A stretch of DNA of 64,000 bases from an uncultured Euryhalocaulis sp. (GCA_913055605.1 CAJXKJ010000007.1:1-64000); one strand, 5' to 3'; numbered from the stretch's first letter, positions 8,492 through 32,690 are shown. Numbers and translations: made by a program. The notes: generated by a model from the letters alone, not told the origin.

Positions 8492-9208
8492 TCAGGCGCA
8501 CAGGGACCAGCCGCGGATCCACAGCCCGGCGTAGAACAGCCGCCTGTCGCGGAAGCCCGCTTCGGCGAGCAGCGCCTCGTGGCGGTCCTGCGGAAGGGGA
8601 AACACCTCCCCGTTCCTCATGACCTGGACCATGCGCGCGATATCCTCCTCGCGCGCGCCCATGCGCCGCGCGAAGCCGACATAAAGCCGCAAATCCCGCT
8701 CGAACTCCGGCCCCTGCATCTGCGAACAGCCATCGATCAGCAGAAAGGGAGCGCCCGGCTTCAACCGGCGGCGAATTTCCCGGAGGGCGCGAAGCCGCCG
8801 CCCGTCATCCGGAATGAAATGCAGGGCCAGGAAGGCGGTCGCCGCGTCGAAGGGGCCGTGCGGAGCATCCTCGACATAGGCCTGCACCCAGTTCACGCGC
8901 GAGGGGTCCACGCGCGAGGCGACATGCGCCTTGGCGCTGGCGATCATGTCGGCCACCGGATCCAGCGCAACGAAGCGCCAGCCGGGCCGTTCGCCGGCCA
9001 AGGCGCCGAGTTCGATGCCGCCGCCGGCCCCGACGACCAGAATTTCGGCGGCGTCCGTCAGGCAGTCCGACAATATCGTGCGGGCCATCACGTGGCTCGC
9101 GTCGTACCCGGGAACGAAGCGCCGCGGCCCCTTTTCGGCATAGCTGGCCGCCATGTCGCCGGTCAGAAACGCGGGCGCGTCCGCTCCCGGAGCGGCGGGG
9201 GCGGTCAT
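8492..9208 (-). CDS. Class I SAM-dependent methyltransferase
   Basis: ILVVGAGGGIELGALA, FVALDPVADMIASAK, AATAFLALHFIPDD, RRLKPGAPFLLIDG. ATGA overlap with the DUF1826 gene. Confidence 0.8.
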   Translation of the reverse strand: MTAPAAPGADAPAFLTGDMAASYAEKGPRRFVPGYDASHVMARTILSDCLTDAAEILVVGAGGGIELGALAGERPGWRFVALDPVADMIASAKAHVASRVDPSRVNWVQAYVEDAPHGPFDAATAFLALHFIPDDGRRLRALREIRRRLKPGAPFLLIDGCSQMQGPEFERDLRLYVGFARRMGAREEDIARMVQVMRNGEVFPLPQDRHEALLAEAGFRDRRLFYAGLWIRGWSLCA

Positions 9209-9876
9209 GCGGGCGCACTCCCCGCGCCGTCACAGCATGAGCCGCCCCAGTCCGCTGCATCCGGCGGCTCGTTCAGGCACAGCACCAGCCGGACGGCGCC
9301 CGTCCCCTCCACCGGGGGCGAGCGATGCACGGCGGCGCGGTGGCCCGGGCTTTTCCAGCCCTTCAGCAACACGACGGCGAAGCGCGGCGCCGAACAGACC
9401 AGCCCGTCATAGTCGCGCTGTTCCGCCACCGCCCGGGGGCCCCAGCAATCCGGCGCATATTGCGTGCCGGGTCCGAGATACGTGCACAGCGCACGCACGC
9501 GGACATTGTCGCGGTGGAAACGCCAGCACGCGTCGTCCGTGACCTTGTCCAGACGGATATGCACGCGCGAAATGCCGAGGAACCGGGCAAAGCCCGATGC
9601 GACCTCGTAAATGTCCCGCCGCAACGCCGCGCGGCCGGCATCGTCCGGCGTTCCGGCCGCGGTGAAGAGCGCGTCCAGAAATCCAGGAACATCGGACGGA
9701 CCTATGATCGCCCGGCCGTGCGGCAGGAGGGACGGCGGCAGGCCGTCCAGCCAGGCCGGCAGCTCAACGGGCGCCGCCCGCCGCGACACGGCATGCGCCG
9801 CCATGGAGGCGGAGAAGCCCTCCCAGCCGCCGGCCGGGAACAAGGGCGCCGACAGCTCCCCGACGGGCGCCGTCAC
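9205..9876 (-). CDS. DUF1826 domain protein (commonly beside ZigA)
   Basis: [71 protein letters not shown]. Overlaps the ZigA stop. Confidence 0.85.
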
Positions 9877-11102
9877 GCCGCTTCCCGATTCCAGACAGGG
9901 AACGGATCATCAAGATCGGTGCGCGGCACGATGCGGCCGTCGGCGTCCCGCGCCGGCTCGGTCAGGCAGGCGTCCAGCTCTGCGCGGATCGCGGCCTCGT
10001 CCATTGCGATGCCGATTACGACGATCTCCTGCCTGCGGTCGCCGAACGGCTCTTCCCAGGATTTGCCGATATAGGCGTCGAACTCCGGCCCTTCCGGCCA
10101 GTGGTCGCGCGGCACCGCCGCCCACCACCGCCCCAGGGGACTGTTCTGCACCAATGCGCCGGCCTGGCTGACCTCGCCCAGCCAGTCGGGCCGGGTCGCA
10201 ATCCAGAAAAACCCCTTCGCGCGGACAACGCCCGGCCACGGCCGGTTGAAGAATGCGTGCAATCTGGCGGGGTCGAAGGGACGCCGCGCGCGATAGACGA
10301 AGTGTCCGATCCCGTATTCCTCGGTCTCGGGCACGTGATCCGCGAAGCCGTAGAGCTCCTTGGCCCAGAGCGGGTGGTCGTGCGCCCGCTCGAAATCGAA
10401 CCGGCCGGTCGCCAGCACTTCGTCCAGCGGCACGCGGGCGTAGTCGGTTTCCAACACCCGCGCGTCCGGATTGAGACCATGAACGATGGCGCGGATGGTC
10501 TTCAGCTGCGCCGCCGACACCTCCGAAACCTTGTTCAGGATGATGACGTCGGCGAACTCGATCTGGTCGACCAGAAGTTGGACCAGCGCGCGGCCGTCTT
10601 CGTCGCCAGCGGTTTCGCCGCGATCGCGGAGGAAATCCGAGCTCGAATAGTCGCTCAGGATGTTGGCTGCATCGACGACCGTCACCATGGTGTCGATCGT
10701 GGTGACATCGCCCAGCGAGGCGCCGTTTTCCGCCCGGAAATCGAACGTCGCGGCGACCGGAAGCGGCTCGGATATCCCGGTCGACTCGATCAGCAGATAG
10801 TCGAAGCGGCCCGAACCGGCGAGCGCGGCGACCTCCTGCAGCAAATCCTCGCGGAGCGTGCAGCAGATGCAGCCATTGGACATCTCGACGAGGGATTCAT
10901 CGGTGCGGGAAAGACTCGCGCCGCCGGAGCGCACGAGTTCGGCGTCGATGTTCACCTCGCTCATGTCGTTGACGATGACCGCGACGCGCCGCCCCTCCTG
11001 ATTGTTCAGAATGTGATTGAGCAGGGTCGTCTTGCCCGCGCCCAGAAAGCCGGAAAGCACGGTGACGGGAAGTTTCTCGGCGTTCATCGGCGTGACGTCC
11101 AT
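9873..11102 (-). CDS. zigA: COG0523/CobW-family GTPase, ZigA-type zinc metallochaperone
   Basis: Walker [25 protein letters not shown] in [36 protein letters not shown]. Next to zur and a Zur-like box. Confidence 0.9.
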
Positions 11103-11116
11103 TCTCCTTGGCTCCA

Positions 11117-11139
11117 GTTATGTTATGATATAACATAAC
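11117..11139. promoter_or_regulatory. Zur-box-like palindrome between zigA and zur
   Basis: GTTATGTTATGATATAACATAAC; 23 bp, palindromic except at the centre. Core TGTTATGATATAACA at 11121-11135. Confidence 0.88.
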
Positions 11140-11169
11140 CTATCGTTGACGCCAGAGGAGACGGCGGTC

Positions 11170-11592
11170 ATGCCGGACCGGCCTCATTCTCCCGTAAAGC
11201 TGACCCAGAACGACCGCGAGATTCTGGCGGTGCTGCACGCCGCCGGGACGCCGATCACCGCCTACGCCATCATCGGCCGGATCGACCGGGAAAAGGTCTT
11301 TCCTCCAACGGTCTACCGCTCGCTCAACCGCCTGCTGGAGGCCGGGCTGGTCCATCGGATCGAGAGCAAGAAGGCGTATTTCGCCTGCCCCTCCGACCGA
11401 AGCTGCGCCGGGGAATCCATTTTCATGGTGTGCAGCGATTGCGGACAGGTCGCGGAGATCAGCAACCACGCGATCGAACGCCAGCTGACAGCGGCCGCGC
11501 GGGATGCGGCCTTCGAACCGGCCGGCTTCACGCTGGAGGCCCATGGTCTTTGCGCCAACTGCAAGAACGGCCAGACCCGCGCGGCCGGCTGA
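11170..11592 (+). CDS. zur: Fur-family zinc uptake regulator Zur
   Basis: VFPPTVYRSLNRLLEAGLVHRIESKKAYFAC, CSDCGQVAEI, HGLCANC. GAGGAG about 9 nt before the ATG. Genomic context supports Zur over Fur. Confidence 0.88.
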   Translation: MPDRPHSPVKLTQNDREILAVLHAAGTPITAYAIIGRIDREKVFPPTVYRSLNRLLEAGLVHRIESKKAYFACPSDRSCAGESIFMVCSDCGQVAEISNHAIERQLTAAARDAAFEPAGFTLEAHGLCANCKNGQTRAAG

Positions 11593-14948: not shown

Positions 14949-14963
14949 TGTTATAATATAACG
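14949..14963. promoter_or_regulatory. Zur-box-like palindrome between DUF2796 and ZIP genes
   Basis: TGTTATAATATAACG, within AATGTTATAATATAACGTT. Confidence 0.87.
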
Positions 14964-14981: not shown

Positions 14982-15842
14982 ATGTCACCAGCAGTCCTCG
15001 TCACGCTTTACGCCGCCCTGTTTTCCGCAGCGGCGGCGGCGGGAGCGCTCATTCTCGGAACCCGGATTCGCTCCGTCAGCGCCGTCAGCGCGGCGACCAG
15101 CGCGGGGGCGCTTCTGATCGTGGCGGTGCTGCACCTGACGCCGGCGAGCGCCGCCCTCAATCCCGCGGCCCCGGTTTTCGTGGTCGCCGGGCTGGCGGGC
15201 GCCGTCCTCGCGCATCTGGCGTTCGAGGGGTTCGGCGTGCGCATGGCGACCCTGGCGCTGATCCTCGCCGGCGTGGGAGTGCACTCCTTCGCCGACGGGC
15301 TGGTGATTGCTGTCGTGGGCGTCGCCGGCGCGGACATCCTTCGCTCCAGCGCTCCAGGGATGCTGTTGCACGAAGTCCCCGAAACCGTCTTCTGCTATTT
15401 CGCCGCCAGCCGCGCCGGAATCCGTCCCGCCGCCGCAGCCGGCGTCAGCATCGGGATCGGAGGCGGCGCCACGCTGGTTGGCGCATTGGTCAGCGGTCCG
15501 CTGGTCGCCGGGGCGACGGACGCGCAGCTGGGCGGCCTCCTGGCGCTGAGCGCCGGCCTGATGGTCTATTCCGGCGGCTCGATCCTTCTGGCCGGACCGC
15601 GAACCACGCTCTGGAAACGCGGCGCCGCCGCCGGCGCCGGCGCCGCGACCATCTCAGCCATGATTGCGCTTGCCCCGGCGCACCGGCACCTGCCCGGAAG
15701 CTCCTCGGCGAGCCATCCGGGCCATATCCACGCAAGCCTGGACCGCCGGGCCCCTGTCGCCGGCGGCCTCGACGGCACGGCGTATCGCTTCGACCCCAAC
15801 CGGACCAGTCAGCCTCCGCCCCGAAAGGACGATGAGAAATGA
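14982..15842 (+). CDS. ZIP-family metal transporter
   Basis: Hydrophobic helices with GVGVHSFADGLVIAVVG and PGMLLHEVPETVFCYFAA (ZIP TM IV/V metal-site pattern); short His-containing C-terminal tail. Confidence 0.82.
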   Translation: MSPAVLVTLYAALFSAAAAAGALILGTRIRSVSAVSAATSAGALLIVAVLHLTPASAALNPAAPVFVVAGLAGAVLAHLAFEGFGVRMATLALILAGVGVHSFADGLVIAVVGVAGADILRSSAPGMLLHEVPETVFCYFAASRAGIRPAAAAGVSIGIGGGATLVGALVSGPLVAGATDAQLGGLLALSAGLMVYSGGSILLAGPRTTLWKRGAAAGAGAATISAMIALAPAHRHLPGSSSASHPGHIHASLDRRAPVAGGLDGTAYRFDPNRTSQPPPRKDDEK

Positions 15843-16484: not shown

Positions 16485-19400
16485 CTAGCCGCCCCTGACG
16501 CCGCGCCAAGCCGCGCCGGCGCCGACCAGCCCGGCCGCGACGAGGAAGACCAGGATGACGCGGCCGTCCAGCGGCTGGTCCGAGGGCGCGGACGCCGACG
16601 GGGTTTCCTCTATCGCGAAGCCTTCCACCTGCGCCGCCTGCCGACCGGACGGCGCCCGGGGCGCGGGGCTGCTGGCGGCCGGCTGCTCTGCGGCGGCCTG
16701 CGCCGCTGCCTCCGGCGGCGGGGCTGCGGCGGACAGAGCCGGATCGAGCGCGGCGTCAACGGCCACGGGCACGATGGATGCGGGCGCGGCGAGCGCACTG
16801 CTGGAACAATTGCTGACGTCGCAGGCGCGCCCGACCTCGGCGATCAAGCGCTGGTTGAACGCCTCCAGCTCGGCGCGGGTCTGGGCGTCCGCATCCCAGT
16901 AGCCTTTCTCGATCACCGTGAGCATGCGGTCCGCCATGGCCTGGAGGGCGCGAAGATTGTCGGCCTCACGGAACCGCTCTTCGATCTCCAGCCCGTTCTC
17001 ATCGAGGACATAGGTCTCGTAGGTTTCCCGCCACTTGTCGTCATCGACGGCGTCGGGGTCGGTTACCTCCCACCCCCAGAGGTTTTCCACCGTCTGGGCG
17101 ATGAAGCGGGCGCCGGCATACCCCTCGTCCAGCATCTCTTCGATCCATTTCGGATTGAGATAGCGGGACCGCATTTCCCGGCCCAGATAGCGTTCCAGCG
17201 TTTCGTGGCGCGGGTCGGCGGGGTCGGCGAGATTGACCATGAAGATGTCCGGCGTGGCGCCGTCGATCTGGCGCACGGCCATCGCCGCGCCGCCGACATA
17301 TTGATAGACGTCGTCATTATCCAGCACGCCGTAAAGATTGCTGGAACTGGAGTGCAGGACGGCCTTGCTGCCCGACAGCGCCTGCTTGAAGACGCCGATC
17401 GTGGCGTCGTCGCCCAGCGGCCTGTCGCCCCAGAAACCCTGACCGAACAGATAGCCGACGCGGTTGAAATAGACGTCCGCCACCTGGCTGTCCGCGTCCC
17501 AGTAATTGCTGGCGCCGACCACGTCCGACACGCCGGTTCCATAGGAGCCCGGCGGTTCGGTGAAGATGCGAACCGCGGCGATGCGCGCGGCGTCCTCCGC
17601 GTTGACTCCGCCGGCCTCAAGCCCGTTGCGCACGGTCAGCCAGTTCATGCGGATCGGATTGCCCGGCTCGTCCAGCGCGACCAGTTGGGAGACCGCGTCG
17701 TCCAGGACCTCCATGAGATTGGGCAGGCTGTCGCGATACAGGCCGCTGGGCACGATCGTGACGTCGACGCGGGGGCGGCCCAGCTCCTCCGCCGGAATGA
17801 CCTCCACGCCCTGGATCCGGCCGCGGGCGTTCCAGGTGGGGCGGACGCCCATCAGGGCCATGATCTCGGCTTCCGTCACGCCCTCGTGCCGCATGGCCTC
17901 GACGGCCCAGAGCGTGAAGGTGACGCGGTCCGGATAGGCGCCGTCATTGCGCGCGCGATAGTCGTCGATGAAGGCTTCGGCCAGGTCCTGGCCCTGCGCC
18001 CATGTGCCCGGCGTCGGAATCCGTGTGGGGTCGAAGCCGTACATGTTGCGCCCCGTAGGCAGCGCGCCGGGATTGCGGATCGGGTCGTTGCCCGGCCCGG
18101 CCGGCACATAGCGTCCGTCCAGCGCAGCCATCAGGGCGTCCATCTCCGCCGGGCCGCTTCGCTCTATCGTTGCAGCCAGGGACTCGGCCTCCGCTGCGCG
18201 CTCCGCATCGTCCAGCCCTGGGATGACGGACAGAATGGCCTCCGCCGTCTGACGCCGCTCCTGCGGCCCCGGCGAGACGCCGAATGTGTGCAGGCCGAAG
18301 GGCGTCTGGATGCCGGCGACCTCCTCCAGATAGTGCGCCAGCTCGTCGGCGTCCTGGGCCGTCTCCACGCGTTCCAGACCGATATCGCTGAGGATTCCGG
18401 TCTCCGTCGCGAACGCGTCGATCTGGCCGAGGGCGGCCTCCGCGGCCGACACGCTCTGTCCGGCGACGCGCAGATAGTCGCTGACCAGCCCGTTCAGCTG
18501 GCGCAATTCCGGGCTGAGCGTGGCGGCGTCGAAAGGCGGCGTCATATGGGAGATCAGCGCGGCCATGCCCCGGCGCTTGGCCTGCAGCCCCTCGCCGATA
18601 TCGTCGACGATATAGGGGTAGATTTGCGGTACGGCGCCCATCAGGACTTCGCCCGGGTCGGCCCCGGTGAACCCTATCTCCCGCCCCGGCAGCCATTCGT
18701 GAGTGCCGTGCGTGCCCACATGCACCATCGCGTTCGCGCCGAAGCCGTGCTGGAGCCAGAGATAGAAAGCCAGATACTGGTGATGCGGCGGCAGGTGGCT
18801 GGAGTGATAGGCCGCGCTGGCGTCCTGATGGTCATGCGGCTCGCCGTCGTGATCGTGGCCGCCCTCTCCCTCGCCGGACTCATCGCCGTGCGCGTCTTCG
18901 TGCGCGTCGTGGGCCGTTTCCTCCCACCCCCGCGACGGCTGGGCGGCGAGCAGGACGCCGCCGAAGCGGTGCGCGGGGAACACGAAAAACGGCTCGCCCG
19001 CCTCGTTCCGCCAGACCATGACGTCGGCGTCTTCCGGCGCGCCCCATTCGTCCGCCACGCTATCGCGGAGCGAAGCCGGCAGGTCATCGAACCATCCGCG
19101 ATAGACCGACACCGGCAGCAGAATTGCCTCGCCCGACCCGGCGACGCGGGCCAGTTCGTCCGAATCCCAGGAGGCGGCGTTGACCGCATGGTCCTGCACG
19201 ATCAGGCCCAGCTCCCGCTCCGTCGCCGGCAGGTCGCCGACATCATAGCCGTCGTCCCGCATGCGGTTGAGCATTTCCCAGAGCGAGCGGGGCAGGACGT
19301 TCAGATAGGAGGCGCCGACATTCTCCCGGCCCGGCGGATAATTGTAATAGACGAGCGCAACGCGCTTTTCGGCGTTCGGGGTCTGGCGCAGCCGGACATA

Positions 19401-20555
19401 TTCGGCGATCCGGTCGGCCAGCCGCTCCACCCGTTCGGGAACGGCGCTTTCGACCGTATAGGTCAAGCCGGACGCCTCATCCCGCGCCTGTTCCTTGGTG
19501 GCGTAGACCGTGGGCGCCACCAGACCGGCGAATTCCGGCGTGGCGATCTGGAAATTCCGCTCCCCGATGGACAGGCCGTCGGTTGAGGCCTCCCACTGTT
19601 CCAGGGTTTTGTCGTAGAGGGCGATGGCGTTGACGATCGGCACGTCGGCGACCTGCAACAGGGGGACGGTGCGCTCCGGCACATTGTTGAAGCGGAAGGC
19701 CGTGCCTACGATGGCCTCCACATAGGCGCCGCCCCCGGGACGGGTCAGCAACTGCTCCACCGCCAGTTCGGACGGATAGCTATAGGCGGGCGCGACGTTC
19801 AGGCCGCGGCTCTCCAGCGCTTCCGCGATCGGCGCGATGTTCTCGCTGGCGCCCATGACGGCCGTGCCGCGATCGAAGGCGATGGCGACGAAGGGGGCGT
19901 CGGCCGCGGCGGCGGGCCGGCCCTGCAGATAGGCCTGACGGTAGGACTCGAATGAGTCGTGCACCCGGCCCGTGCGCCAGTCCCACAGGGCCACCATCGG
20001 CAGCGCGGCAGGCGGGTCATAGGTCAGGTCGTATCCGAAATCCCGCGCCAGCACGTAGCGGATCATGGAAATCCAGTTCGCCTTGCCGCCCGCCTCGCCA
20101 TAGGCGAGCAGCTGGGGGTCGGGCGTCATGCCGGCCTGCGCCTCCGCCGCCTCGAACCCGCCGCCAAAGGCATAGGCCCGCGCGTCCCGCGTTTTCATTA
20201 CGGAGATGGCGGGCGCCACGGCCTCTGCGATGTCGCGGCCCATATTGGAGACCAGAGCCACGTCCGCTTCGGACATCGCCGCGACGTCTTCCTGTGTCGA
20301 CCCCTGCCACGGAAACAGGGTGAACTCGACATTGGCGAGGGCCGGGTCCTGTTTCAGGGTTTTGACGACCTCGATGGCCATCCGGGATTCGGCGTCGCGC
20401 GGCGCCAGGGCGACCGTCAGCGTATCGTCCTGGGCGCGCACGGGTCCGGGCGCTGTCAGGGACAACGCGCCGAAAAGAACGAAGGCCAGCGCATTCAGCG
20501 CGCGGGACGCCGCGGCGCGGCCGCGCGCGCCCGGCCAGGGTCCGGCCGCCGCCAC
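16485..20555 (-). CDS. CobN/Mg-chelatase H-like protein, signal peptide plus C-terminal TM anchor, His-rich insert
   Basis: MVHVGTHGTHEWLPGREIGF chelatase signature; RGRIQGVEVIPAEELGRPRVDVTI; N-terminal hydrophobic ALNALAFVLFGALSLTAPGPVRA; C-terminal VILVFLVAAGLVGAGAAW. Confidence 0.88.
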   Translation of the reverse strand: MAAAGPWPGARGRAAASRALNALAFVLFGALSLTAPGPVRAQDDTLTVALAPRDAESRMAIEVVKTLKQDPALANVEFTLFPWQGSTQEDVAAMSEADVALVSNMGRDIAEAVAPAISVMKTRDARAYAFGGGFEAAEAQAGMTPDPQLLAYGEAGGKANWISMIRYVLARDFGYDLTYDPPAALPMVALWDWRTGRVHDSFESYRQAYLQGRPAAAADAPFVAIAFDRGTAVMGASENIAPIAEALESRGLNVAPAYSYPSELAVEQLLTRPGGGAYVEAIVGTAFRFNNVPERTVPLLQVADVPIVNAIALYDKTLEQWEASTDGLSIGERNFQIATPEFAGLVAPTVYATKEQARDEASGLTYTVESAVPERVERLADRIAEYVRLRQTPNAEKRVALVYYNYPPGRENVGASYLNVLPRSLWEMLNRMRDDGYDVGDLPATERELGLIVQDHAVNAASWDSDELARVAGSGEAILLPVSVYRGWFDDLPASLRDSVADEWGAPEDADVMVWRNEAGEPFFVFPAHRFGGVLLAAQPSRGWEETAHDAHEDAHGDESGEGEGGHDHDGEPHDHQDASAAYHSSHLPPHHQYLAFYLWLQHGFGANAMVHVGTHGTHEWLPGREIGFTGADPGEVLMGAVPQIYPYIVDDIGEGLQAKRRGMAALISHMTPPFDAATLSPELRQLNGLVSDYLRVAGQSVSAAEAALGQIDAFATETGILSDIGLERVETAQDADELAHYLEEVAGIQTPFGLHTFGVSPGPQERRQTAEAILSVIPGLDDAERAAEAESLAATIERSGPAEMDALMAALDGRYVPAGPGNDPIRNPGALPTGRNMYGFDPTRIPTPGTWAQGQDLAEAFIDDYRARNDGAYPDRVTFTLWAVEAMRHEGVTEAEIMALMGVRPTWNARGRIQGVEVIPAEELGRPRVDVTIVPSGLYRDSLPNLMEVLDDAVSQLVALDEPGNPIRMNWLTVRNGLEAGGVNAEDAARIAAVRIFTEPPGSYGTGVSDVVGASNYWDADSQVADVYFNRVGYLFGQGFWGDRPLGDDATIGVFKQALSGSKAVLHSSSSNLYGVLDNDDVYQYVGGAAMAVRQIDGATPDIFMVNLADPADPRHETLERYLGREMRSRYLNPKWIEEMLDEGYAGARFIAQTVENLWGWEVTDPDAVDDDKWRETYETYVLDENGLEIEERFREADNLRALQAMADRMLTVIEKGYWDADAQTRAELEAFNQRLIAEVGRACDVSNCSSSALAAPASIVPVAVDAALDPALSAAAPPPEAAAQAAAEQPAASSPAPRAPSGRQAAQVEGFAIEETPSASAPSDQPLDGRVILVFLVAAGLVGAGAAWRGVRGG

Positions 20556-20558
20556 GGT

Positions 20559-23500
20559 CTAGACGGGTCCGCCGCGGAACCAGCCCAGCCCTGCGACGCC
20601 CAGGCCGGCGATGACCAGGACGATAAGGATCATCCGCGACTGGCCGAGATCTTCGGCGGCGGCGGTCAGCACCTCCTCCACCACGCGGCCGGTGACGGTC
20701 GGGTCCGGCGCCGGGCCGGCGGAGCCGCCGCCCCCGCCGCCGGTCGCCGCCGAGATCGCGCTGGCGTAGCCGGCCATGAGCGGCGCGGCGTCCGGCAAGC
20801 TTGAAAGCGCCGTCTCCACGAATTCCGTCATCGCGGGATTGGCGCACTGATTGGCCTCGCAGGCCGGGCCGTGCTCGGCCACGCTTTGCGCCAGACGCGC
20901 CGCGATCTGCGCCAGCTCCTCGGCCGTGGCCTCCCACTGGCCCCGCTGGGCGGCGCCCAGCAGGTTTGTCATCAGCATCTGGTGGGCGAACGGATTGGCC
21001 TGATCGAAGAATGCGTCCATGCCCAGCTCGAACTTGTCGTCCACGAAGACCGACTTTACCTCCGCCCAGTCGTCGGACGAGACGGTTTCGGTCGCCGTGC
21101 TGTCCCACAGGTCCAGATGATCGGTCAGGAACATGAAATTGCGCGCGCCGTCATAGCCGTGCGCCTGATTTTCCTGCAGCCATTTGGGATTGAAATAGCG
21201 GGTGCGCAGCTCCGTCTGGATCGCCCGCGCCGCCGTCTCGATCTGGGGATTGGACAGATCGGCGAGCTTTGAGACGAACAGGTCCGCGTCTTCGCCGGTG
21301 ATGTCCTTGTGGGCCAGGTTCAGGCCGCCCAGGAAGGCCGCGGACATCGGCTGGTCCAGCATGCCGTTGACGTCGCTGGTGCGCGGCAGCATGGCGGCGT
21401 CCATTTCCGCCACGCCGCTCTTGAACGCGCCCTGCGAATATTCGCCGTACAGGCCGCCGCCATAGGCGTGGCTCATGCGGCGGGTGAACAGTTCGGCCAT
21501 GCGCGCCTCGTCCCCGCGGCGTTCGCCGGACTTGGCCAGAAACTGGATGCTGGGCGAATAGGCGCCCGGCGCCGGCGAAAACACGCGCGCTGCGGCCAGC
21601 AGCCGTGCGTCCGCGTCGCCATGCCCTTCCTCTTTCAGCGCCTCGACCGCATCTTCGATATTCTTTGCGACGGGGTTGTCGTCCTCCGGACTGGCGGCGG
21701 CCAGCGCGGTGGCCTGGGTGATCAGGTCCACCTTGTCCTGATAATGATCGCGATAGGTTCCGCTGGTCGTGACCAGAACATCCACGCGCGGCCGGCCCAG
21801 CTCCTCCCGCGGAATGAGAGAGACGCCGATCACCTCGCCCCGCCAGTTGCGCTCCACGCGCGTCCCCAGCAGGCGCAGGATCTGCCCCTCCGATACGCCG
21901 GCGGTTTTCGCGATGTCAGCGGAGAACAGCACGACGGCCAGCTTGTCCGGATAGGCGCCGTCATTTTCCGCGCGGTAAGCGTCGATCAACGCCTCGGCCT
22001 GGCGGGCGCCGATGTCTTCGGCCTCCGGCGTCGGCAGGCGCGCCGGGTCCAGATTGTACAGCGTCCGGCCCGGAGGCAGCGTGTCGGGATTGCGGAACGG
22101 TTCGCCCATCGGACCCGGCTCCAGCCAGGCGCCGCTCAGCGCCGCGAACAGGGAATCGACCTCCCGCGGGGCGGTGCGCAGGCGGGCGGCGAAATCGGCC
22201 GCCAGGGCCAGCCCTTCCTGCAGTCCGGGAACGGGATCGCCGGCGACCGTGGCCGCGGCCGCCTGCGGGGACCGGCCCTGCTCCACGACCATGGCGATCA
22301 GCTCGCGCGCACCGGCGCGGCCGATATCGGGGCGTTCCTCGAACAGGGACTGGAAATCCCGGCCCAGCATGCCCTCCACCATCGCGGCCATGGCGCCGTC
22401 CTCCGGCGCGGAGCCCAGAAGCTTGCCGCCCCAGGGCATGTTGCTGGCCTCCAGCTCCGCGATATAGGTCTCAAGAGCGGCGGTCAGCTCCGGCAGGGGC
22501 GCTGTCCGGATGTCCAGGTCCAGCGCGCGCGACAGGCCGGATTCCTCCGCCTCCTCCCGGATCGTGGCCTCGAAGGACCGCTTCTGCTCCTGCGTGGCGG
22601 CGGCGTAGCGGCCGAGCACGCCGCGCAGGTCGCCGATGGCCTCGCCGGCGTCCGACGGCGTGACGATATTGTACCAGCCATAGGCCAGGGCCATGCCCTT
22701 GCGCCGGTTGCTGACGCCGCCATTGCCGCCCAGGCGTTCGGGATGGATATGCGGCAGGCCGCCCAGCAGGACGCCGATATGGTCGTCCGCCAGCGGACCT
22801 TCATTCTTGCCCGGCTGCAGCACGATATTGGAGAACAGGCTGACCCAGGCGTCGGCTTTCCATTCCTTCTGCATATAGAGGAAGAAGGCCAGATACTGGT
22901 GATGGGGCGGCAGCGCGTCCTTCGACATCAGCGCCTTTTCATCCTCCAGATACCCCCACATCGGATGCGGGGCGATCAGGACGTTGCCCAGCTGGATCTT
23001 GGGAATGACGATGGCGCGGGTTCCGTCCTCCATCGCCGCGGTCATCACGTCGCCCGGCGGGGGACCCCAATATTCCTCGATCTCCGCGCGGCGCTGTTCC
23101 GGCAGGGCGTCGTACCATTCCCGGTACTCCGCTTCCGGCAGCAGGAAGACGTCGCCGCCGCGGACGCGCCGGGCCAGTTCGCCCGGCGCCCAGGCGCCGA
23201 CATTCGACGCATCGCGCGCCATCTTGTCGGCGATCTGCTTCGCATCGGGCAGCGGGCCGCCGCCCAGATCGTAGCCTTCGGCCTGCATCCGGCCGATCAG
23301 GTCCGCCAGCGTGCCGGGCACGTCCAGGAAATCGTCGGGGTCGCCGCCAATGTCGGACTTGCCGCCGGCCTCGCTCCAGAAGGTGAACAGGATGCGCTTG
23401 TCCGCATTGTCCAGACGGGACAGCCGGGCCCAGCTGAGCGCACGCTGAATGCGCCAGCGGACCTGCTCGGGCATGACCACATACTCCCGGATATCCGCCT

Positions 23501-24512
23501 CCGGATTTGTGGCGCCCACGACCATAGGTTCGATCTGGCCTTCCCGCTCCGGATCGACGACGCGGGCCGTCAGCTCCGGCGCCATTCCGCCGGGAGAGGC
23601 GCGATAGTCCGCCGCGCTGCCCTTGGGATAGGGAACCGCGCGCAGGACCGGAACGCCGAGCCGGCGCAGCTCCGCGATCCCGGCCTCCAGATCCTGGGTG
23701 TTCAGGCGTTCGCTGTCGTTCAGCTGCACGTCGACCAGCGGCGCGCCATCGCACACGAAGGGCGACAGATCGATCGCGCCGTCGCGCAGTTGCGTGATCG
23801 CATTGGCGCCCTGGCTTTCGATCTCCGCGATCTGGGCATCCAGCAGCGCCGTGTTCTCCTGGCGGTAGTAGACGATATAGGAGCTGATGCCGACAGAGGG
23901 CGCCTGGGCGTCATAGGCATGGCCGTCGGTGCGGGCGGCGTACCAGTCCAGATACTCGTCCATCGTGTCGAACAGGGCGCCGGCGTCCGGATGGTAGAAC
24001 CCCGATTGCGGATAGACGACGGGCGCGGGCGCGTCCTTTCCGCCGTCCATCTCCGCCACGTTGCGGCGCAGATAGGACAGCAGGGCGCGGTCGTTTTCGA
24101 ACGACCGGTTCGCCCAGTAGGTCTCGATATCCGGATGCCGGTCCAGCGGCACGTTCCCCTGGAGCGTTTCGTCCGGATTGACGACGACAAGGCGCGTGTC
24201 GCGGCGCAGGCGGGCGATGTCGTCCGCCGAGAACGGCAGGCCGTCCGCCGCGCCGTCGATCATCACGACATCGAAGCCTTCCAGATCCGCCACGCCGTCC
24301 AGCGGGGATCCTTCGGCCTCTCCGGTAAAGGCCTGCGCCTGCACGAGGTCGGAAACCGCGCCGGCCGCCTCCAGCAATTGCGCGGCGCCGTTCGACTCCT
24401 TGCCCTCGAAGACCATCGCGATACGCGCGGTTTCGTGCTCCCTGGAGCAGGCCGCGGCGGCGAACGCCAGGACCCCGGACAGGATGAGCTTCCAGCAGCG
24501 ATCAAACGCCAT
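20559..24512 (-). CDS. CobN/Mg-chelatase H-like protein, divergent paralogue, lipoprotein-like signal plus C-terminal TM anchor
   Basis: LSGVLAFAAAACSREHE lipobox; LPPHHQYLAFFLYMQKEWKADAW; REELGRPRVDVLVTTSGTYRD; C-terminal MILIVLVIAGLGVAGLGWF. Confidence 0.86.
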   Translation of the reverse strand: MAFDRCWKLILSGVLAFAAAACSREHETARIAMVFEGKESNGAAQLLEAAGAVSDLVQAQAFTGEAEGSPLDGVADLEGFDVVMIDGAADGLPFSADDIARLRRDTRLVVVNPDETLQGNVPLDRHPDIETYWANRSFENDRALLSYLRRNVAEMDGGKDAPAPVVYPQSGFYHPDAGALFDTMDEYLDWYAARTDGHAYDAQAPSVGISSYIVYYRQENTALLDAQIAEIESQGANAITQLRDGAIDLSPFVCDGAPLVDVQLNDSERLNTQDLEAGIAELRRLGVPVLRAVPYPKGSAADYRASPGGMAPELTARVVDPEREGQIEPMVVGATNPEADIREYVVMPEQVRWRIQRALSWARLSRLDNADKRILFTFWSEAGGKSDIGGDPDDFLDVPGTLADLIGRMQAEGYDLGGGPLPDAKQIADKMARDASNVGAWAPGELARRVRGGDVFLLPEAEYREWYDALPEQRRAEIEEYWGPPPGDVMTAAMEDGTRAIVIPKIQLGNVLIAPHPMWGYLEDEKALMSKDALPPHHQYLAFFLYMQKEWKADAWVSLFSNIVLQPGKNEGPLADDHIGVLLGGLPHIHPERLGGNGGVSNRRKGMALAYGWYNIVTPSDAGEAIGDLRGVLGRYAAATQEQKRSFEATIREEAEESGLSRALDLDIRTAPLPELTAALETYIAELEASNMPWGGKLLGSAPEDGAMAAMVEGMLGRDFQSLFEERPDIGRAGARELIAMVVEQGRSPQAAAATVAGDPVPGLQEGLALAADFAARLRTAPREVDSLFAALSGAWLEPGPMGEPFRNPDTLPPGRTLYNLDPARLPTPEAEDIGARQAEALIDAYRAENDGAYPDKLAVVLFSADIAKTAGVSEGQILRLLGTRVERNWRGEVIGVSLIPREELGRPRVDVLVTTSGTYRDHYQDKVDLITQATALAAASPEDDNPVAKNIEDAVEALKEEGHGDADARLLAAARVFSPAPGAYSPSIQFLAKSGERRGDEARMAELFTRRMSHAYGGGLYGEYSQGAFKSGVAEMDAAMLPRTSDVNGMLDQPMSAAFLGGLNLAHKDITGEDADLFVSKLADLSNPQIETAARAIQTELRTRYFNPKWLQENQAHGYDGARNFMFLTDHLDLWDSTATETVSSDDWAEVKSVFVDDKFELGMDAFFDQANPFAHQMLMTNLLGAAQRGQWEATAEELAQIAARLAQSVAEHGPACEANQCANPAMTEFVETALSSLPDAAPLMAGYASAISAATGGGGGGSAGPAPDPTVTGRVVEEVLTAAAEDLGQSRMILIVLVIAGLGVAGLGWFRGGPV

Positions 24513-24565: not shown

Positions 24566-24937
24566 TCATGGCGCCGCGCCCGGAGGAGCCTCGCCTTCGG
24601 GCACATAGACCACCTGGCCGTCGGCCAGCTCGTAGGCGACGCCCAGGCGCGTGCCCTGTCCCGACAGGTTCCGGTCGGTGACCTTCTGCACCGTGATCGT
24701 CTCGCGGGTCTTGGAAATGATTTCCATGGACCCGTCGGCGTTGGTCTTCACCAGCGTCGTACTGCTGTCCGGGTCCAGCAGGTCGGCGCTGGAGAACAGC
24801 GTGAACAGGGCGATCAGCAATGCGACGATGAACGCGACGCTGACATCGAACAGATTGGCGAGACCGGCAAGCGGATCCTCGTCCTCTCCCGGAGGGGGGC
24901 CGTGGCTGCCATAGCGGTGCCGGTGGACGAAGCGCAT
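24566..24937 (-). CDS. DUF2149 (ExbD-like) single-TM protein
   Basis: EDPLAGLANLFDVSVAFIVALLIALFTLFSSADLL followed by a small extracytoplasmic domain. Confidence 0.82.
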   Translation of the reverse strand: MRFVHRHRYGSHGPPPGEDEDPLAGLANLFDVSVAFIVALLIALFTLFSSADLLDPDSSTTLVKTNADGSMEIISKTRETITVQKVTDRNLSGQGTRLGVAYELADGQVVYVPEGEAPPGAAP

Positions 24938-24940
24938 GGC

Positions 24941-25504
24941 CTATTCCCCCGACGCCGGCGCGCCCGAGGCGCGCAGCAATTCCTCCGCGCGGAATGTCAG
25001 CTCCCGCGTGTCGGAACGCACCCAGGCCTCCCGCGAGGCGGCGATGAGATAGGCGATGACGCTGATCGCCAGGCCGATCACGGTCGCGGCGAAGGCCGTC
25101 ACCATATTGCTGGCCAGGGCGGGCAGATTGCCCTCGGACAGGCCTTTCAGCGCATAGGCCATCGGGATCAGCGTGCCCATCAGGCCAAGGGCGGGGCCGA
25201 CCCGGACCGCCAGGCGCAGGCGGGACAGCGCGCCCCACAGCGCGCGCTCCTCGGTCTGCAGGGCTTTTTCCAGGCGCAGGTCGATCGGGTCCGGCCCGCC
25301 TTCGGCGGCGACGGCTTCCAGCCGCGCGCGGGCCGCAGCTAGCGCGGCGCGGCGGCCGCGGCTGCGCTCCCACACCTCGCGCAGATAAGCGCCGATGACG
25401 AACAGCGTCGCCGCAGACAAGGCGATCAGGCCGAGCATCACCGGCCAGATCAGAAGCCCGGCGATCAGATGGAGGATTTCCCGGATGTGGTCGATAGGGG
25501 TCAT
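24941..25504 (-). CDS. MotA/TolQ/ExbB proton channel family protein
   Basis: Three TM segments; LRLAVRVGPALGLMGTLIPMAYALKGLSEGNLPALASNMVTAFAATVIGLAISVIAYLIA. Start MTPIDHIREIL at 25504. Confidence 0.85.
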   Translation of the reverse strand: MTPIDHIREILHLIAGLLIWPVMLGLIALSAATLFVIGAYLREVWERSRGRRAALAAARARLEAVAAEGGPDPIDLRLEKALQTEERALWGALSRLRLAVRVGPALGLMGTLIPMAYALKGLSEGNLPALASNMVTAFAATVIGLAISVIAYLIAASREAWVRSDTRELTFRAEELLRASGAPASGE

Positions 25505-25660
25505 GCGCGGCGGCCCCGCCGGCCCGGATACGCAACAGACATAGTGACAGGTCTCATTTGTTGGCGCGGCGAACGCTCGCCGCCGTAAGTGAAGGTTCCG
25601 CAGGGCGCTCTGAAACGGTGCGCCCGCAGAGGGCATCCGCTCTTTCCGGGCGCGGCGTAG

Positions 25661-25675
25661 TGTTAACTTATAACA
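25661..25675. promoter_or_regulatory. Zur-box-like palindrome upstream of the MotA/DUF2149/CobN/CobN operon
   Basis: TGTTAACTTATAACA; both TGTTA/TAACA half-sites perfect with the same spacing as the other three boxes. Confidence 0.75.
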
Positions 25676-25725: not shown

Positions 25726-26976
25726 CTAGGCAATCAGCCCCTCGAACTGGCCGCCCGAATAGCCCGGGAACACCGATTGCGGATTGTCCAGCCCGAGCTG
25801 GCGGCCCGCCGCGGCGGCGAGCACGGATCGGTAGTCCGTCGTCACGGGCAGATCCATCTGGTCCTCCAGCGCGTCCCGTTCGAACCGCTCGGGAAGCTGG
25901 CCATAGACCTTGCCGCCGTTCACGCCGCCGCCCAGCACCATCATCATCGTGGCGCGGCCGTGATCGGTGCCGATCCCGTCATTCTGGGGCACGTTGCGGC
26001 CGAAATCGGTCATGTTCACCAGAACCACGTCCTCGGCCCGGTCGCCCAGATCGGCCCAGAAGGCGGCCAGGGACCGTGCGTAGTCGTCCGCGATGGCGGC
26101 GAAGCCGCCGGTCATCGAAGCCTGGTCCGAATGCGAGTCCCAGGACCCCTGCCCGTTCGCGCCGTTGCGCGATTCTGCGAACGCGACACGCAGCCCGACA
26201 TCCGCCTTGATGACGCGCGCGATGTCGCGAAGGCTGTCGCCGAAGGCCGAATTGCGCGGATAGCGCGCGGCGTGCGCCGAATCCGCCGGCGCCGCGGCCA
26301 GCGCCCGGATCGCCTCGGCCCCGACGGCCGCATTCTTCAGCTCCGGGTTGCCGGTGGCCTCGTACAATTGCGCGATACGCGACTGAAGGTCGCCCTGGGT
26401 CGACGCCAGAAGGCGGTCCAGCGAGCCGGTCGAGGTGACGGCCGTGTCGCCATAGAAGGCGCGCGGCCGCTCATCCGTCATGGCCATGGCGTGCAGGTCG
26501 GATGCGCCATGGGGCGTATCCGCAGCGGCGCGGGCCATCCAGCCGTCGCGCACGGAGCGGTCGCCCGGGGCGCCGGACTCCCACCACAGCGCAGCCACCG
26601 AATGGGACCGCGTGGTGTCCGGGGAGCCGGCAGCATGGATAAAGGCGAGATCGCTGGAACGGTACAGCGGCTCCAGCGGAGCCAGCGAGGGATGCAGGCC
26701 GAACTGGCCGTCGAGGTCGATCCGCGCATCGTCCGCCGAAGAACCGGGGCGGGACAGCATCAGGCTCGGCCGCAGGGCGGCCAGCCGCTCGTCGCCATAC
26801 GGGGTTACGGCGAAAAGGCCGTCCATGCCGAAGCGCTGATACACCGCGACCAGGATCTTGTTGCGGCCAAGCGGTTCGGCCTGCGCGGCGGCGGCAGTCA
26901 GGAACGCCGGAACCGCGCCCAGTCCGGAGGCGAACATCACCGCGCCGGCGGACTTCAACAGCATTCTGCGATTCAT
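25726..26976 (-). CDS. DUF1501 exported protein
   Basis: Tat-like MNRRMLLKSAGAVMFASGLGA; ILVAVYQRFGMDGLFAV, HPSLAPLEPLYRSSDLAFIHAAG, GTDHGRATMMMVLGGGVNGGKVYG. Confidence 0.87.
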   Translation of the reverse strand: MNRRMLLKSAGAVMFASGLGAVPAFLTAAAAQAEPLGRNKILVAVYQRFGMDGLFAVTPYGDERLAALRPSLMLSRPGSSADDARIDLDGQFGLHPSLAPLEPLYRSSDLAFIHAAGSPDTTRSHSVAALWWESGAPGDRSVRDGWMARAAADTPHGASDLHAMAMTDERPRAFYGDTAVTSTGSLDRLLASTQGDLQSRIAQLYEATGNPELKNAAVGAEAIRALAAAPADSAHAARYPRNSAFGDSLRDIARVIKADVGLRVAFAESRNGANGQGSWDSHSDQASMTGGFAAIADDYARSLAAFWADLGDRAEDVVLVNMTDFGRNVPQNDGIGTDHGRATMMMVLGGGVNGGKVYGQLPERFERDALEDQMDLPVTTDYRSVLAAAAGRQLGLDNPQSVFPGYSGGQFEGLIA

Positions 26977-27013
26977 TGCATATCTCCCCAAACTGGGTTT
27001 GTGACGGGCGCGC

Positions 27014-28774
27014 TCAGCGCGTCTGGAATTGCGGACTGGCGATAAGCATCGCCCAGACCTGATCTGGCGACGTATCCTGCGCGGCGGCGTGCTCTATCGC
27101 CGCGACGAGGGCATTCACGTCCCGTTCCGGCAGGGCCAGGCCCGCCAGGTCTCCGGGCGCCGCCGCGGCCGGATCGACGCCCATGGAAACCCCGGCGAGA
27201 CGGCCCTGAGAGAGCCGCTCCGCGAACGCGAAACGGGCGGTCAGGCTGGCGGGATCCAGCCAGTAGTCGTTGCGGTCGGGATAGCCGACAGGCTCCACAT
27301 AGGCGTACAGCGGCTGGCCCATACGGCCGATGCTCTCGGCGAGCGCCGCCGCCTGGTGCACCGTGCCGTCGCTGCCCCGGATCGCGCTGACGGCGTATTC
27401 GAACGGCGTCTTGATTTTTGAACGCTTGGCGGCCTCGACCCAGAACGCCTCGCTCTGCGCCATCGTCCGGATCACCGCGGCGATGTCCCCGCCCGACGAC
27501 AGGAACGCACCGGCCATCGCGTCGACCAGCGCCTCGGGCGGCGTTTCGCTGACGAACCGCGTCGCGATCTTGCCGGAGATATGGCGCGCCGTATCGGCCT
27601 GGCCGGCGATAACCTGCAGGGCGCGACGCCCTTGTTGCAGCCCCTCGCCGGCGGCGAACGTCTCGCCCAGCAGGGTCTTGGCCGAAGCATCATGCAGATC
27701 GGAGCGGAACAGGAAGCTGCCATGCTGCTCCACGCCCAGCGCCGCGGCGTTTTCCATCCCGCCCTGGAACCAGTCCTCCGTCGGGCCATAGAACGCCACG
27801 TCCCAGCCGGTCAGCATCCGGGCGAGCGCAGCGATGTCGGCGTCGGTAAAGCCGCCGCCGGCCCCCATCGTCTGATCCGCCAGGATCAGCCGCGCGAACG
27901 CTTCGTTCGGGCCGGTTCCGGCCCAGTTTTCCCGGGACAGGATTTCGTCTTGCTCCGCCTCCAGCGCCGCGATTTCGTCTCTCGCCGCGCGGACGCGCGC
28001 CGGGCCGGCGTCGGCGCCGAGCCGTCCCATGAGCGATTGCGAAAATTCGATCTCCGACGGCGCTGCGAGATCCTCATGATAGGCGAGCATGCCGGGATGC
28101 GAGACGGCGGCCGTCAAAAGATCGCCGAAATGCCCGAGCGCGTTGGGGCGAACAGCTTCGCCCTCGAACGCGAGCACCCAGAGCCGGGCGTCGAACGCCG
28201 TGGGCGTCACATAGAAATGGTTCTGCCAGAAATCCGTCATGACCTCGCGCAGCTGGTTCTCCGAATGAACCGCGCGCACGAGTTGCTGCTCGATCAGCTG
28301 GCTGTGCAGGTCTTCTTCCTGGGTCCGGAAGCCGAGTTTCGCGGACAGCTCTTCCAGAGCCCGGTTCTGCGCCGCCCGATCCGTCACCACGACGTCCCGG
28401 CCGGGAATCAGATCCAGGCGGCGCGCATGGGCGCGCACCTGGGAGCTGGTCGGATAGCGCCGGACCAGCGCCTCGTGCGTAAGGGACAATGCCTCAAGCC
28501 CCGCCAGCCGATCCTGGACATAGGCGTCCGGCGCGTTCGCGGAGAGCTGGCCCTCCAACCATTGGTCCAGGCCCATCGCAACAACCCGATCGACGTCGCC
28601 CGGACGCGCGCCGAAGGTAAAGCGGTCGATCAGCAGGGCCGCCGCCTGCCGCTCCCCGAGGCCCGCCGCCTCATAAGGGAACGCCGCATCCTCCGCGGCG
28701 AGCGCCGGCGCGGCGCCGGCCGCGGCGAGAAACAGTGACGAGCACGCCGCCAAGGCTGCGCGAATTGTGGACAT
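27014..28774 (-). CDS. DUF1800 exported protein
   Basis: LLIDRFTFGARPGDVDRVVAMGLDQWLEGQL, MTDFWQNHFYV, FTDADIAALARMLTGWDV, HDASAKTLLGE, AVIRTMAQSEAFW. Confidence 0.87.
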   Translation of the reverse strand: MSTIRAALAACSSLFLAAAGAAPALAAEDAAFPYEAAGLGERQAAALLIDRFTFGARPGDVDRVVAMGLDQWLEGQLSANAPDAYVQDRLAGLEALSLTHEALVRRYPTSSQVRAHARRLDLIPGRDVVVTDRAAQNRALEELSAKLGFRTQEEDLHSQLIEQQLVRAVHSENQLREVMTDFWQNHFYVTPTAFDARLWVLAFEGEAVRPNALGHFGDLLTAAVSHPGMLAYHEDLAAPSEIEFSQSLMGRLGADAGPARVRAARDEIAALEAEQDEILSRENWAGTGPNEAFARLILADQTMGAGGGFTDADIAALARMLTGWDVAFYGPTEDWFQGGMENAAALGVEQHGSFLFRSDLHDASAKTLLGETFAAGEGLQQGRRALQVIAGQADTARHISGKIATRFVSETPPEALVDAMAGAFLSSGGDIAAVIRTMAQSEAFWVEAAKRSKIKTPFEYAVSAIRGSDGTVHQAAALAESIGRMGQPLYAYVEPVGYPDRNDYWLDPASLTARFAFAERLSQGRLAGVSMGVDPAAAAPGDLAGLALPERDVNALVAAIEHAAAQDTSPDQVWAMLIASPQFQTR

Positions 28775-28971
28775 GGTTTCCCCCTTACGGCCGGACCGCA
28801 AAATCTGCGGCCAATCAGTGACGGGCGCGCCCGGACAGCAAGGAAATTACAGTTACCCCCTGCCGGTAACGCCCGGCGCGCACAGCATCTCGGGCACGTC
28901 GCCGACACCCGCGCGACGCAGGGCGCCGGCCGGCGAGCGAACGCAATAGCCGCCTGCTGGCGCAACGGAAG

Positions 28972-28986
28972 CGTTATGATATAACA
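28972..28986. promoter_or_regulatory. Zur-box-like palindrome between DUF1800 and PepSY/TonB-receptor operons
   Basis: CGTTATGATATAACA; one mismatch to the zur-proximal box. Confidence 0.87.
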
Positions 28987-30572: not shown

Positions 30573-32690
30573 ATGACAATGTTCAAACCGACCCGGCCGT
30601 CCAGACGGTCCCATCTTCTGCGCACGGCCGCGCCGGCGCTGACGGCGGCGCTGATCTCCGCGCCGGCCCTTGCCCAGCAGTCCGCGGTTTCGCAACGGGA
30701 CACGATCGTGGTGACCGCAAGCCGCACCGCGCAGAGCGTGCTGGACATCCCCGCCTCCGTCGAAGTGATCAGCGAGGCGTCTCTGCTGAATACGCCGGGC
30801 GCGGACATCACCGACCTTCTGAAGAAGAACGCGTCGGTCGACGTGATCCAGTACCCGGGCGGTCTGGCGGGCGTCGGCCTGCGCGGCTTCCGCCCCGAAT
30901 TCTCCGGAACGAACAAGCGCGTGCTTGTCCTGATCGACGGCCGGCCGGCCGGCGCCGAAAGCATGGGCAATATCGCCACCGCCGGGCTTGCGCGGGTGGA
31001 AGTGCTCAAAGGCTCCGCATCCGCCATCTATGGCGCATCCGCCATGGGCGGCGTCGTGAACTACATCACGCGCAAATCGGAAGGCGAGATCACCGGCAGC
31101 ATCAACGCCGGCTACGGCAGCTATGAGACGGCCAAGCTGGGCGCGAACATCGGCGGATCGCTGACCGAATCGTTCAATTTCGACCTGGGCGTCACCCACC
31201 TGTCCCAGAACGAAGACTATGAACTGGGCTCGGGCGGCGAAACGCTTGGCGCGTTCGTGCAGGGCAACGGCGCCACCCGCCCGAATACGGAGTTCGTGAA
31301 CAATAATTTCTATGCGCGCGGCGCGGTGAAACTGGGTGGCGACTGGGAAGCGCAGATCCGCATCCTGGGCTATGACGCGCCGGACACCGAAACGCCGGGC
31401 GCCGAATCCGACGGGACCTCCGCGCAGAGCGACAAGGACGAATCCAATATCGGCGGCGACCTGTCGCTGACCGGCTCTCTGGGCGCGCACCAGCTGATGG
31501 CGCTGTACTATCAGACCGAGGAAGAACAGGCCTATACGGACAAGCCGCCGAACGCCCAGCAATTTGTGAGTTCCACCAACGACATCAGCTGGAGCGGCCT
31601 GCAGCTTCAGGACAACTGGTCGCTGGGCGCGAACTATGACCTGATCCTGGGCGCCGACTATCAGAAGGTGGAGGAAGAATCCGCTTCCTTCGACGCGGCC
31701 GGCGCGCCGCTCGGCTCCTATTCCCCGGACTATGAGCGCGAGACCATGGGCGTGTTCGCGGACCTGACCGCGCGCCTGTTCGGCGAACGCCTGATCGTCA
31801 ATGTCGGCGGCCGGTACGACGAGATCGAGACCAGCACGCTGGCCACGCTGGGCCGCGCGCGCGTGTTCGCGCCCGGCGAGTCCAAGCTGGACACGTTCAA
31901 TCCCCGCGCGGGCATCGTGTATCGCCCCGATGCGGACGGACCGTGGCGCATCCACGCCAGCGCCGGCACCGGCTTTGTCGTGCCGGACCCCGGCCAGGTC
32001 TCCGGCTATTACGAGCAGATCGTGGGCGGCCAGCGCCGCGTCACCCAGGGCAATTCCGGCCTGGCCCCGGAGGAGAGCGAAAGCTACGACCTCGGCGTCG
32101 GCTATGACGGCTTCCTGTTCGGCCTGGACGTCACGCTGTTCAAGCTGGACGTGAAAAACCGCATCGCCAGCGTGCTGACGACCAACACGCCGGCCCTGCG
32201 CGTGACCAGCTATGAAAATGCGGCCGGATCAACCGCCGAGGGCCTCGAGGCCCAGGGCCAGTTCGATCTGGGCGGGCTGTTCGGCGGGCGCGAAGGCGTC
32301 TGGCAGGCGGACACCACGCTGACCTATTACTTCACGCGGGAGGAAGAGCTTTCCACCGGTCCGAGCACGATCCGCAACGTCGCCAAGTTCAAGGCGAATT
32401 TCGGCCTCGGCTTTGACGACGGCGTGTTCTCGGCCCGGATCGGCGGGCGGCACGTGTCCGGTATGGAGGATCAGGACTTCAGCGCCGGCCGGGTGTTCAC
32501 CAACGGCGCCGGAGGCACGTTCGAATATCCCGAATTTGTCGTGTTCGACATCACCGCGGGCTGGCAGATCGACGACGTCAACCGCCTCTCGGTGAAGGTC
32601 GATAACATCACGGACAAATATTATTACGAGAAGGCGGACTATCCGTTCCGCGGCCGCAACTTCCTCGTCGAGTACCGCAGGGATTTCTGA
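30573..32690 (+). CDS. TonB-dependent receptor
   Basis: Plug RDTIVVTASRTAQSVLDIPASVEVIS, LAGVGLRGFRPEFSGTNKRVLVLIDGRP, VEVLKGSASAIYGASAMGGVVNYIT; C-terminal aromatic YPFRGRNFLVEYRRDF. Confidence 0.93.
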   Translation: MTMFKPTRPSRRSHLLRTAAPALTAALISAPALAQQSAVSQRDTIVVTASRTAQSVLDIPASVEVISEASLLNTPGADITDLLKKNASVDVIQYPGGLAGVGLRGFRPEFSGTNKRVLVLIDGRPAGAESMGNIATAGLARVEVLKGSASAIYGASAMGGVVNYITRKSEGEITGSINAGYGSYETAKLGANIGGSLTESFNFDLGVTHLSQNEDYELGSGGETLGAFVQGNGATRPNTEFVNNNFYARGAVKLGGDWEAQIRILGYDAPDTETPGAESDGTSAQSDKDESNIGGDLSLTGSLGAHQLMALYYQTEEEQAYTDKPPNAQQFVSSTNDISWSGLQLQDNWSLGANYDLILGADYQKVEEESASFDAAGAPLGSYSPDYERETMGVFADLTARLFGERLIVNVGGRYDEIETSTLATLGRARVFAPGESKLDTFNPRAGIVYRPDADGPWRIHASAGTGFVVPDPGQVSGYYEQIVGGQRRVTQGNSGLAPEESESYDLGVGYDGFLFGLDVTLFKLDVKNRIASVLTTNTPALRVTSYENAAGSTAEGLEAQGQFDLGGLFGGREGVWQADTTLTYYFTREEELSTGPSTIRNVAKFKANFGLGFDDGVFSARIGGRHVSGMEDQDFSAGRVFTNGAGGTFEYPEFVVFDITAGWQIDDVNRLSVKVDNITDKYYYEKADYPFRGRNFLVEYRRDF

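Follow-up and report, generated by a model that had tools for sequence, protein, structure and literature searches.

Tandem CobN-like proteins in a Zur-linked operon of an uncultured Euryhalocaulis species, candidates for periplasmic zinc release

Two adjacent genes in a 64,000-nucleotide stretch of DNA from an uncultured Euryhalocaulis sp. (GCA_913055605.1 CAJXKJ010000007.1:1-64000; the window is this whole stretch) encode large proteins of the CobN superfamily, here called CobN-A and CobN-B, or A and B. They share an operon with genes for an ExbB-like protein and a DUF2149 protein, behind a Zur box. Our best reading, drawn from sequence comparison, is that A and B would be a zinc-specific version of the periplasmic de-chelatases of the HmuS/PA1923 kind, possibly driven by the proton motive force. 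Most CobN-superfamily proteins outside three named families lack an assignable function (PMC12583661), and periplasmic metal release from imported chelates is little understood outside haem; the window locus ties two branches of the superfamily to zinc. CobN-like proteins of the periplasm are already known, and so is a cobN operon under Zur control. New with respect to the open-access literature are the A branch with its rewritten site, the tandem of two lineages, the His-rich gate of B, the survey of the gene trio across metals and the motor hypothesis, some of which subscription journals may hold.

The coordinates of A and B, which are separated by 3 bp, agree with those of a first-pass annotation made from the sequence alone. 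The operon runs ExbB-like, DUF2149, CobN-A, CobN-B, all on the minus strand, with the Zur box in front:

25661..25675, plus strand: Zur box TGTTAACTTATAACA, upstream of the operon
24941..25636, minus strand: MotA/TolQ/ExbB-family proton channel protein (PF01618, 55 bits), with weak PDB matches to ExbB and PomA; the real start is probably an internal ATG near 25504
24566..24937, minus strand: DUF2149 protein (PF09919), one transmembrane helix with Asp in NLFDVSVAFIVALL and a short exported domain
20559..24512, minus strand: CobN-A, 1317 residues, ATG start; lipoprotein signal AAAC-S, C-terminal transmembrane helix, rewritten active site
20577..20633, minus strand: C-terminal transmembrane helix of A (residues 1294-1312), VTGRVVE before it and a basic tail after it
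16485..20555, minus strand: CobN-B, 1356 residues, GTG start; type I-like signal peptide, class I chelatase family, C-terminal transmembrane helix, intact HVGTHGTHEW motif
16509..16565, minus strand: C-terminal transmembrane helix of B (residues 1331-1349), VEGFAIE before it and a basic tail after it

At its N-terminus A carries MAFDRCWKLILSGVLAFAAAAC ahead of S, a lipobox, and B a type I-like signal with ALAFVLFGALSLTAPGPVRA ahead of QDD. Outside the signal, each protein contains one strongly hydrophobic 19-mer, followed by the short basic tail. Open reading frames, lipobox and 19-mers were found as the first-pass annotation had described them, and its view that both proteins are periplasmic and C-terminally anchored is supported by the signals, helices and tails, on the basis of hydropathy, the positive-inside rule and homology to HmuS.

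The PF02514 profile covers nearly the full length of A (764 bits) and B (1001 bits), which are the sole PF02514 proteins in the genome (3.16 Mb, 98 contigs, listed as 100% complete). Both fall far under every CobN/ChlH equivalog cut-off in NCBIfam; with the best model, B reaches 863 bits against a cut-off of 1248 and A 670 bits against 1619. The best PDB relative is the haem de-chelatase HmuS of Bacteroidota (PDB 9D26; BtuS1/BtuS2 of B. fragilis), which matches over the full length (1214 bits vs 789 for CobN) and, like A and B, has a signal and a C-terminal transmembrane helix. The HmuS operon also resembles that of A and B in its TonB receptor, ExbB-like and DUF2149 genes (PMC10434189). HmuS is membrane-anchored and frees iron from haem in lysates with NADH and no ATP (PMC12583661), and localisation data for P. 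gingivalis HmuS in E. coli support periplasmic exposure (PMC13227078). In contrast to the HmuS system, the window operon has a Zur box, and A and B lack both the Met-rich insertion (at most 6 Met per 80 residues vs 21 in the Prevotella protein) and a counterpart of the haem-binding His-254 of the head/neck, the HGR motif being absent.

The link to zinc drawn in the first pass is supported by the neighbouring zinc genes and by the Zur boxes, which had gone unnoticed there. With up to 3 mismatches, the Zur-box pattern gives 8 matches in the window against 0.22 expected, and 0 of 100 shuffles reach 8; these matches include overlapping registers of single sites, and four palindromic Zur boxes mark the locus. 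Around the operon lie genes for ZigA, DUF1826, Zur, ZrgA, DUF3299 and an ABC pair, a gene content that matches published Zur regulons (PMC2770081, PMC4542158). The remaining boxes and the genes most relevant here are:

9873-11102: ZigA GTPase
11121..11135, plus strand: Zur box, zigA/zur divergent promoter region
11146-11592: Zur-like FUR protein
14949..14963, plus strand: Zur box between the zrgA-DUF3299-ABC-FtsX operon and a ZIP-like gene
28972..28986, plus strand: Zur box between the DUF1800/DUF1501 genes and the PepSY/TonB-receptor genes
30573..32690, plus strand: TonB-dependent receptor; in NCBIfam it comes nearest to haem, siderophore and B12 receptor families, below the cut-off in each case

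The active sites of A and B differ from each other and from that of HmuS. Three stretches are concerned:

22806..22844, minus strand: rewritten loop of A, VSLFSNIVLQPGK (residues 557-569), replacing HxGTHGxxEWxPGK
18681..18722, minus strand: active-site motif HVGTHGTHEWLPG of B
18822..18914, minus strand: His/Asp/Glu-rich insertion in B (about residues 548-578; 31 residues with 7 His and 12 acidic) at the start of Loop I

The active-site histidines of HmuS are His-538 and His-1209, and the H538A substitution abolishes activity (PMC12583661). In our alignment, the position of His-538 is taken by the second His of the motif in B (H616) and by Asn-562 in A. The His-1209/Glu-1212 pair is not kept: B has Asp/Gln, with Asp-1082 as in CobN-type proteins, and A has Met/Ala, with Met-1056. 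Of the 68 superfamily members in the alignment, 66 have the HxGxHG motif, and the two without it are A and its Alloalcanivorax orthologue; the A protein of a genome from the same order (G1121) also lacks it and has VSKFSNIVLQPGK at that place. In A and its orthologues the replacement loop follows the pattern VSxFSNIVLQPGK. Because residues 552-569 of A are identical in the Alloalcanivorax orthologue, although the proteins are 48% identical overall, this loop appears to be kept by selection and not to be decaying. CobN-A is a natural control for the role of the conserved histidine. A regular-expression hit that seemed to reveal single-copy Zur-linked CobNs lacking the motif was, according to the alignment, a wrong match. 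In B, the insertion falls in Loop I, which gates the central cavity (position taken from PMC12583661), and brings the gate loop to 50 residues, vs 17-24 in all other full-length alignment rows. Its local His density is the highest among the 68 proteins, and the Met-rich insertion of HmuS sits elsewhere. The analogy with HmuS drawn in the first pass is supported by the best PDB match, the Zur boxes and the absence of CobJ described below; the two proteins cannot both work in the HmuS manner, since A lacks both histidines and B keeps the first only.

A and B do not stem from a recent local duplication, which is ruled out by the tree because each groups with its own relatives elsewhere: A with Alloalcanivorax gelatiniphagus, G1121 and a fragment from G285 (support 100/100), B with proteins of Trichlorobacter lovleyi, G668, Runella and G1121 (100/99). 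Their earlier description as paralogues thus stands at superfamily level only, the proteins being about 27% identical and in different clades. In G1121, A and B belong to two modules that are neighbours but separate, and each of these has an ExbB and a DUF2149 gene to itself; the window tandem therefore looks as if two such modules had been joined and now shared a single motor pair. A contig scan with A alone gave no relatives, and one with A and its orthologue (two peptide patterns) returned solely Alloalcanivorax gelatiniphagus, so that A gives the impression of being rare, though these scans are not a census. Two observations concern these relatives. In G1121, the A-module receptor and CobN-A are broken up among several reading frames (L144, 12573-19654), through decay or sequencing errors, and the CobN of the adjoining B-module is intact. 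The G285 fragment (L015, G285:C501) is part of a receptor-ExbB-DUF2149-CobN-A module; the small contig that carries it comes from a genome with 10% contamination, and the fragment may belong to another organism.

The association of CobN with ExbB-like and DUF2149 genes was surveyed at 73 CobN-superfamily loci. DUF2149 was found nearby at 29 of them, and in 29/29 the CobN protein has a C-terminal helix (22/29 pass a hydropathy cut-off of 1.6; in the remaining 7, at 1.15 to about 1.6, the helix is seen on inspection). At 37/73 loci there is neither DUF2149/ExbB nor the helix; owing to relatedness, these are not 66 independent observations. Seven loci have the helix and no detected DUF2149: four have ExbB (most of them limited by little flanking sequence), one (L102) duplicates L087 in truncated form, and two (L131 and L103) are true exceptions. 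All 36 helix-bearing proteins end in a basic tail. A juxtamembrane VxGxxxE precedes the helix in 21/36 (1.5 in shuffles), including A and B despite their 27% identity, and is absent from the two motor-less proteins. In these two related loci, from Cupriavidus campinensis (L131, 6380-15465) and G669 (L103), the anchored CobN lies near an ordinary CobN gene. Among 16 DUF2149 sequences, the helix has an invariant Asn, and Asp in 15 (Glu in one), an arrangement reminiscent of ExbD. For HmuV, the authors of the P. gingivalis HmuS paper see no resemblance to any known family (PMC13227078), and five papers of the open-access library searched mention DUF2149.

The same module recurs with different metals. 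For haem, Prevotella has HmuY-receptor-CobN-ExbB-DUF2149. For corrinoids, cobalamin riboswitches lie near the module at four loci (L087, L092, L094, L129), some with CbiZ, CbiK or cobamide genes. For nickel, a receptor-ExbB-DUF2149-CobN module stands within a hyp nickel-hydrogenase cluster on a Runella slithyformis plasmid (L130, 2572-13289), which suggests a de-chelatase for a nickel complex. For zinc, Zur boxes accompany the modules at seven loci (L044, L046, L048, L095, L091, L144, L146) and in the window; A-type modules have them in three organisms in all, including Alloalcanivorax (2 mismatches) and G1121. As a separate observation, the riboswitch operon of G668, which also contains CobN-B, CbiK, ExbB and DUF2149, encodes a BtuF-like binding protein fused to CbiZ (L087, 7993-10065).

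Another close described system is the Zur operon PA1922-PA1925 of Pseudomonas aeruginosa (PMC4542158, PMC9431628), which has the same Zur control, TonB receptor, CobN-like, ExbB/ExbD-like and DUF2149 genes. It has one CobN, whereas the window has two, which fall in other clades and of which one has a rewritten site. The sampled single-copy Zur-linked modules (G037, G195, G323, G1063) belong to another clade that keeps HGTHGTQEW and DHPFEY. The corrinoid modules of T. lovleyi pGLOV01 (L129) and G668 share TonB receptor, ExbB-like, DUF2149 and CobN with the window, their CobN proteins being 44-46% and 36% identical to B, respectively. Unlike the window operon, they have a cobalamin riboswitch, corrinoid genes and a complete separate ExbB-ExbD-TonB, with no Zur box and no His-rich insertion.

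From these comparisons we propose a metal-extraction module for zinc starvation, to which we assign slightly less than an even chance: A and B would free zinc from an imported complex in the periplasm, with the proton-driven pair as motor. A TonB receptor would bring the zinc complex into the periplasm. In Alloalcanivorax, G1121 and G285, the orthologue of the window receptor lies directly upstream of ExbB-DUF2149-CobN-A. The C-terminal helices would hold A and B at the inner membrane, and the central cavity of their CobN/HmuS fold would take up the complex. The two proteins would then release the metal to the Zrg or ZIP importers. In B, the usual His would carry out the release and hand the zinc to the His-rich gate loop. 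Zinc release by B, and probably by A, is what we infer; with Asn and Met in place of the two HmuS histidines, A would use a different conserved chemistry, probably on another zinc complex, or would be a binding and presenting subunit. The ExbB-like and DUF2149 proteins would assemble around the CobN tail into a complex driven by protons, taking the role of the AAA+ motors CobST and ChlID. This coupling is speculative and the least certain step. More broadly, and more tentatively than the zinc proposal itself, the pair may replace the AAA+ motor across an entire class of CobN-type de-chelatases that are anchored in the membrane and act on complexes of iron, cobalt, nickel or zinc, CobN-A doing so without the supposedly essential His; the pair would then be a possible energy source for ATP-independent CobN relatives.

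CobN-CobST and ChlH-ChlID, whose large subunits share a superfamily with A and B, are cytoplasmic, are driven by ATP via AAA+ motors, have no transmembrane helix and insert metal. A genome-wide check for CobS and further cobN copies, along the lines suggested in the first pass, found CobS (C81, 630 bits), unlinked to the A/B locus, and no other PF02514 protein. That A and B are ordinary cytoplasmic subunits working with this CobS in B12 synthesis is nevertheless extremely improbable in view of the export signals, C-terminal helices, low equivalog scores and Zur box. CobJ is needed for the corrin ring, and a genome search for it gives just one weak sub-cut-off methyltransferase match; on the ground of its absence we rejected a role in B12 synthesis. 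The window holds no AAA+ partner and no cobalamin gene, as noted in the first pass, which overlooked a candidate partner in the adjoining ExbB-like and DUF2149 genes. We also consider it improbable that the operon scavenges cobalt or corrinoids in zinc starvation, B taking cobalt from corrinoids to replace zinc. The sisters of B sit in cobalamin-riboswitch or corrinoid operons, B shares an Asp at the second site with true CobN, and cobalt mitigates zinc starvation in P. aeruginosa (PMC13083405); yet upstream there is a Zur box and not a riboswitch (no cobalamin riboswitch was found in the window), the His-rich gate occurs in B alone, and A-type modules too have Zur boxes. Of similarly low probability is a heterodimer in which A is a catalytically dead regulatory subunit and B does the work. 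The missing histidines, the 3-bp spacing and the single motor pair would fit such a dimer; against it, A is the only PF02514 protein in the complete Alloalcanivorax genome, G1121 keeps A and B in separate modules, and the new loop is conserved to the degree seen in an active site.

The ExbB-like and DUF2149 proteins might merely energise outer-membrane import as a dedicated TonB-type system, the CobN-like proteins being passive binding or de-chelating proteins with no motor. The module nearly always accompanies a TonB receptor, HmuU/V or PA1924 are described as serving TonB transport (PMC12583661; PMC4542158), and HmuS works in lysates without ATP. We regard this as unlikely, though less so than the alternatives above. 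No TonB gene occurs in the A/B operon, and the pair is not needed as a TonB energiser because the T. lovleyi and G668 operons carry the trio plus the separate ExbB-ExbD-TonB, and because 4 ExbD/TolR and 3 TonB genes lie in other parts of this genome. DUF2149 is also found in Methanosarcina acetivorans, of a lineage without an outer membrane, and CobN has a transmembrane helix whenever the pair is present. Given the recurrence of the trio with different metals, the separate ExbB-ExbD-TonB systems and the Methanosarcina gene, we favour, without proof, an action of the pair on CobN rather than on the receptor. Several points weigh against the proton-driven zinc module. Purified HmuS minus its transmembrane helices is active, and lysates that convert haem depend on NADH but not on ATP (PMC12583661); the de-chelation step may thus run without a motor. 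The association of helix and motor lies largely on few deep branches, that is, few independent events, and has its two exceptions. DUF2149 as an ExbD homologue finds no support in profile comparison (hhalign probability 3.6%), and PF02472 (ExbD/TolR) gives no match to the window gene. A lacks both catalytic histidines, and AlphaFold models of A and B from 3-row alignments were too poor to interpret (mean pLDDT, the model's per-residue confidence, 45 and 52).

Some further genes of the zinc locus deserve mention. A DUF1800-DUF1501 pair (27014-28801 and 25726-26991, minus strand) lies downstream of the Zur box at 28972. By the box at 14949, a ZIP-like membrane protein (14982-15842, plus strand) with HSFADG and HEVPE motifs and a Pfam Zip match of E 0.27 is probably a divergent zinc importer. 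A methyltransferase (8492-9208, minus strand), which may modify the imported ligand, has a counterpart by the receptor at L048, and PA1921 of the P. aeruginosa cluster is likewise a methyltransferase.

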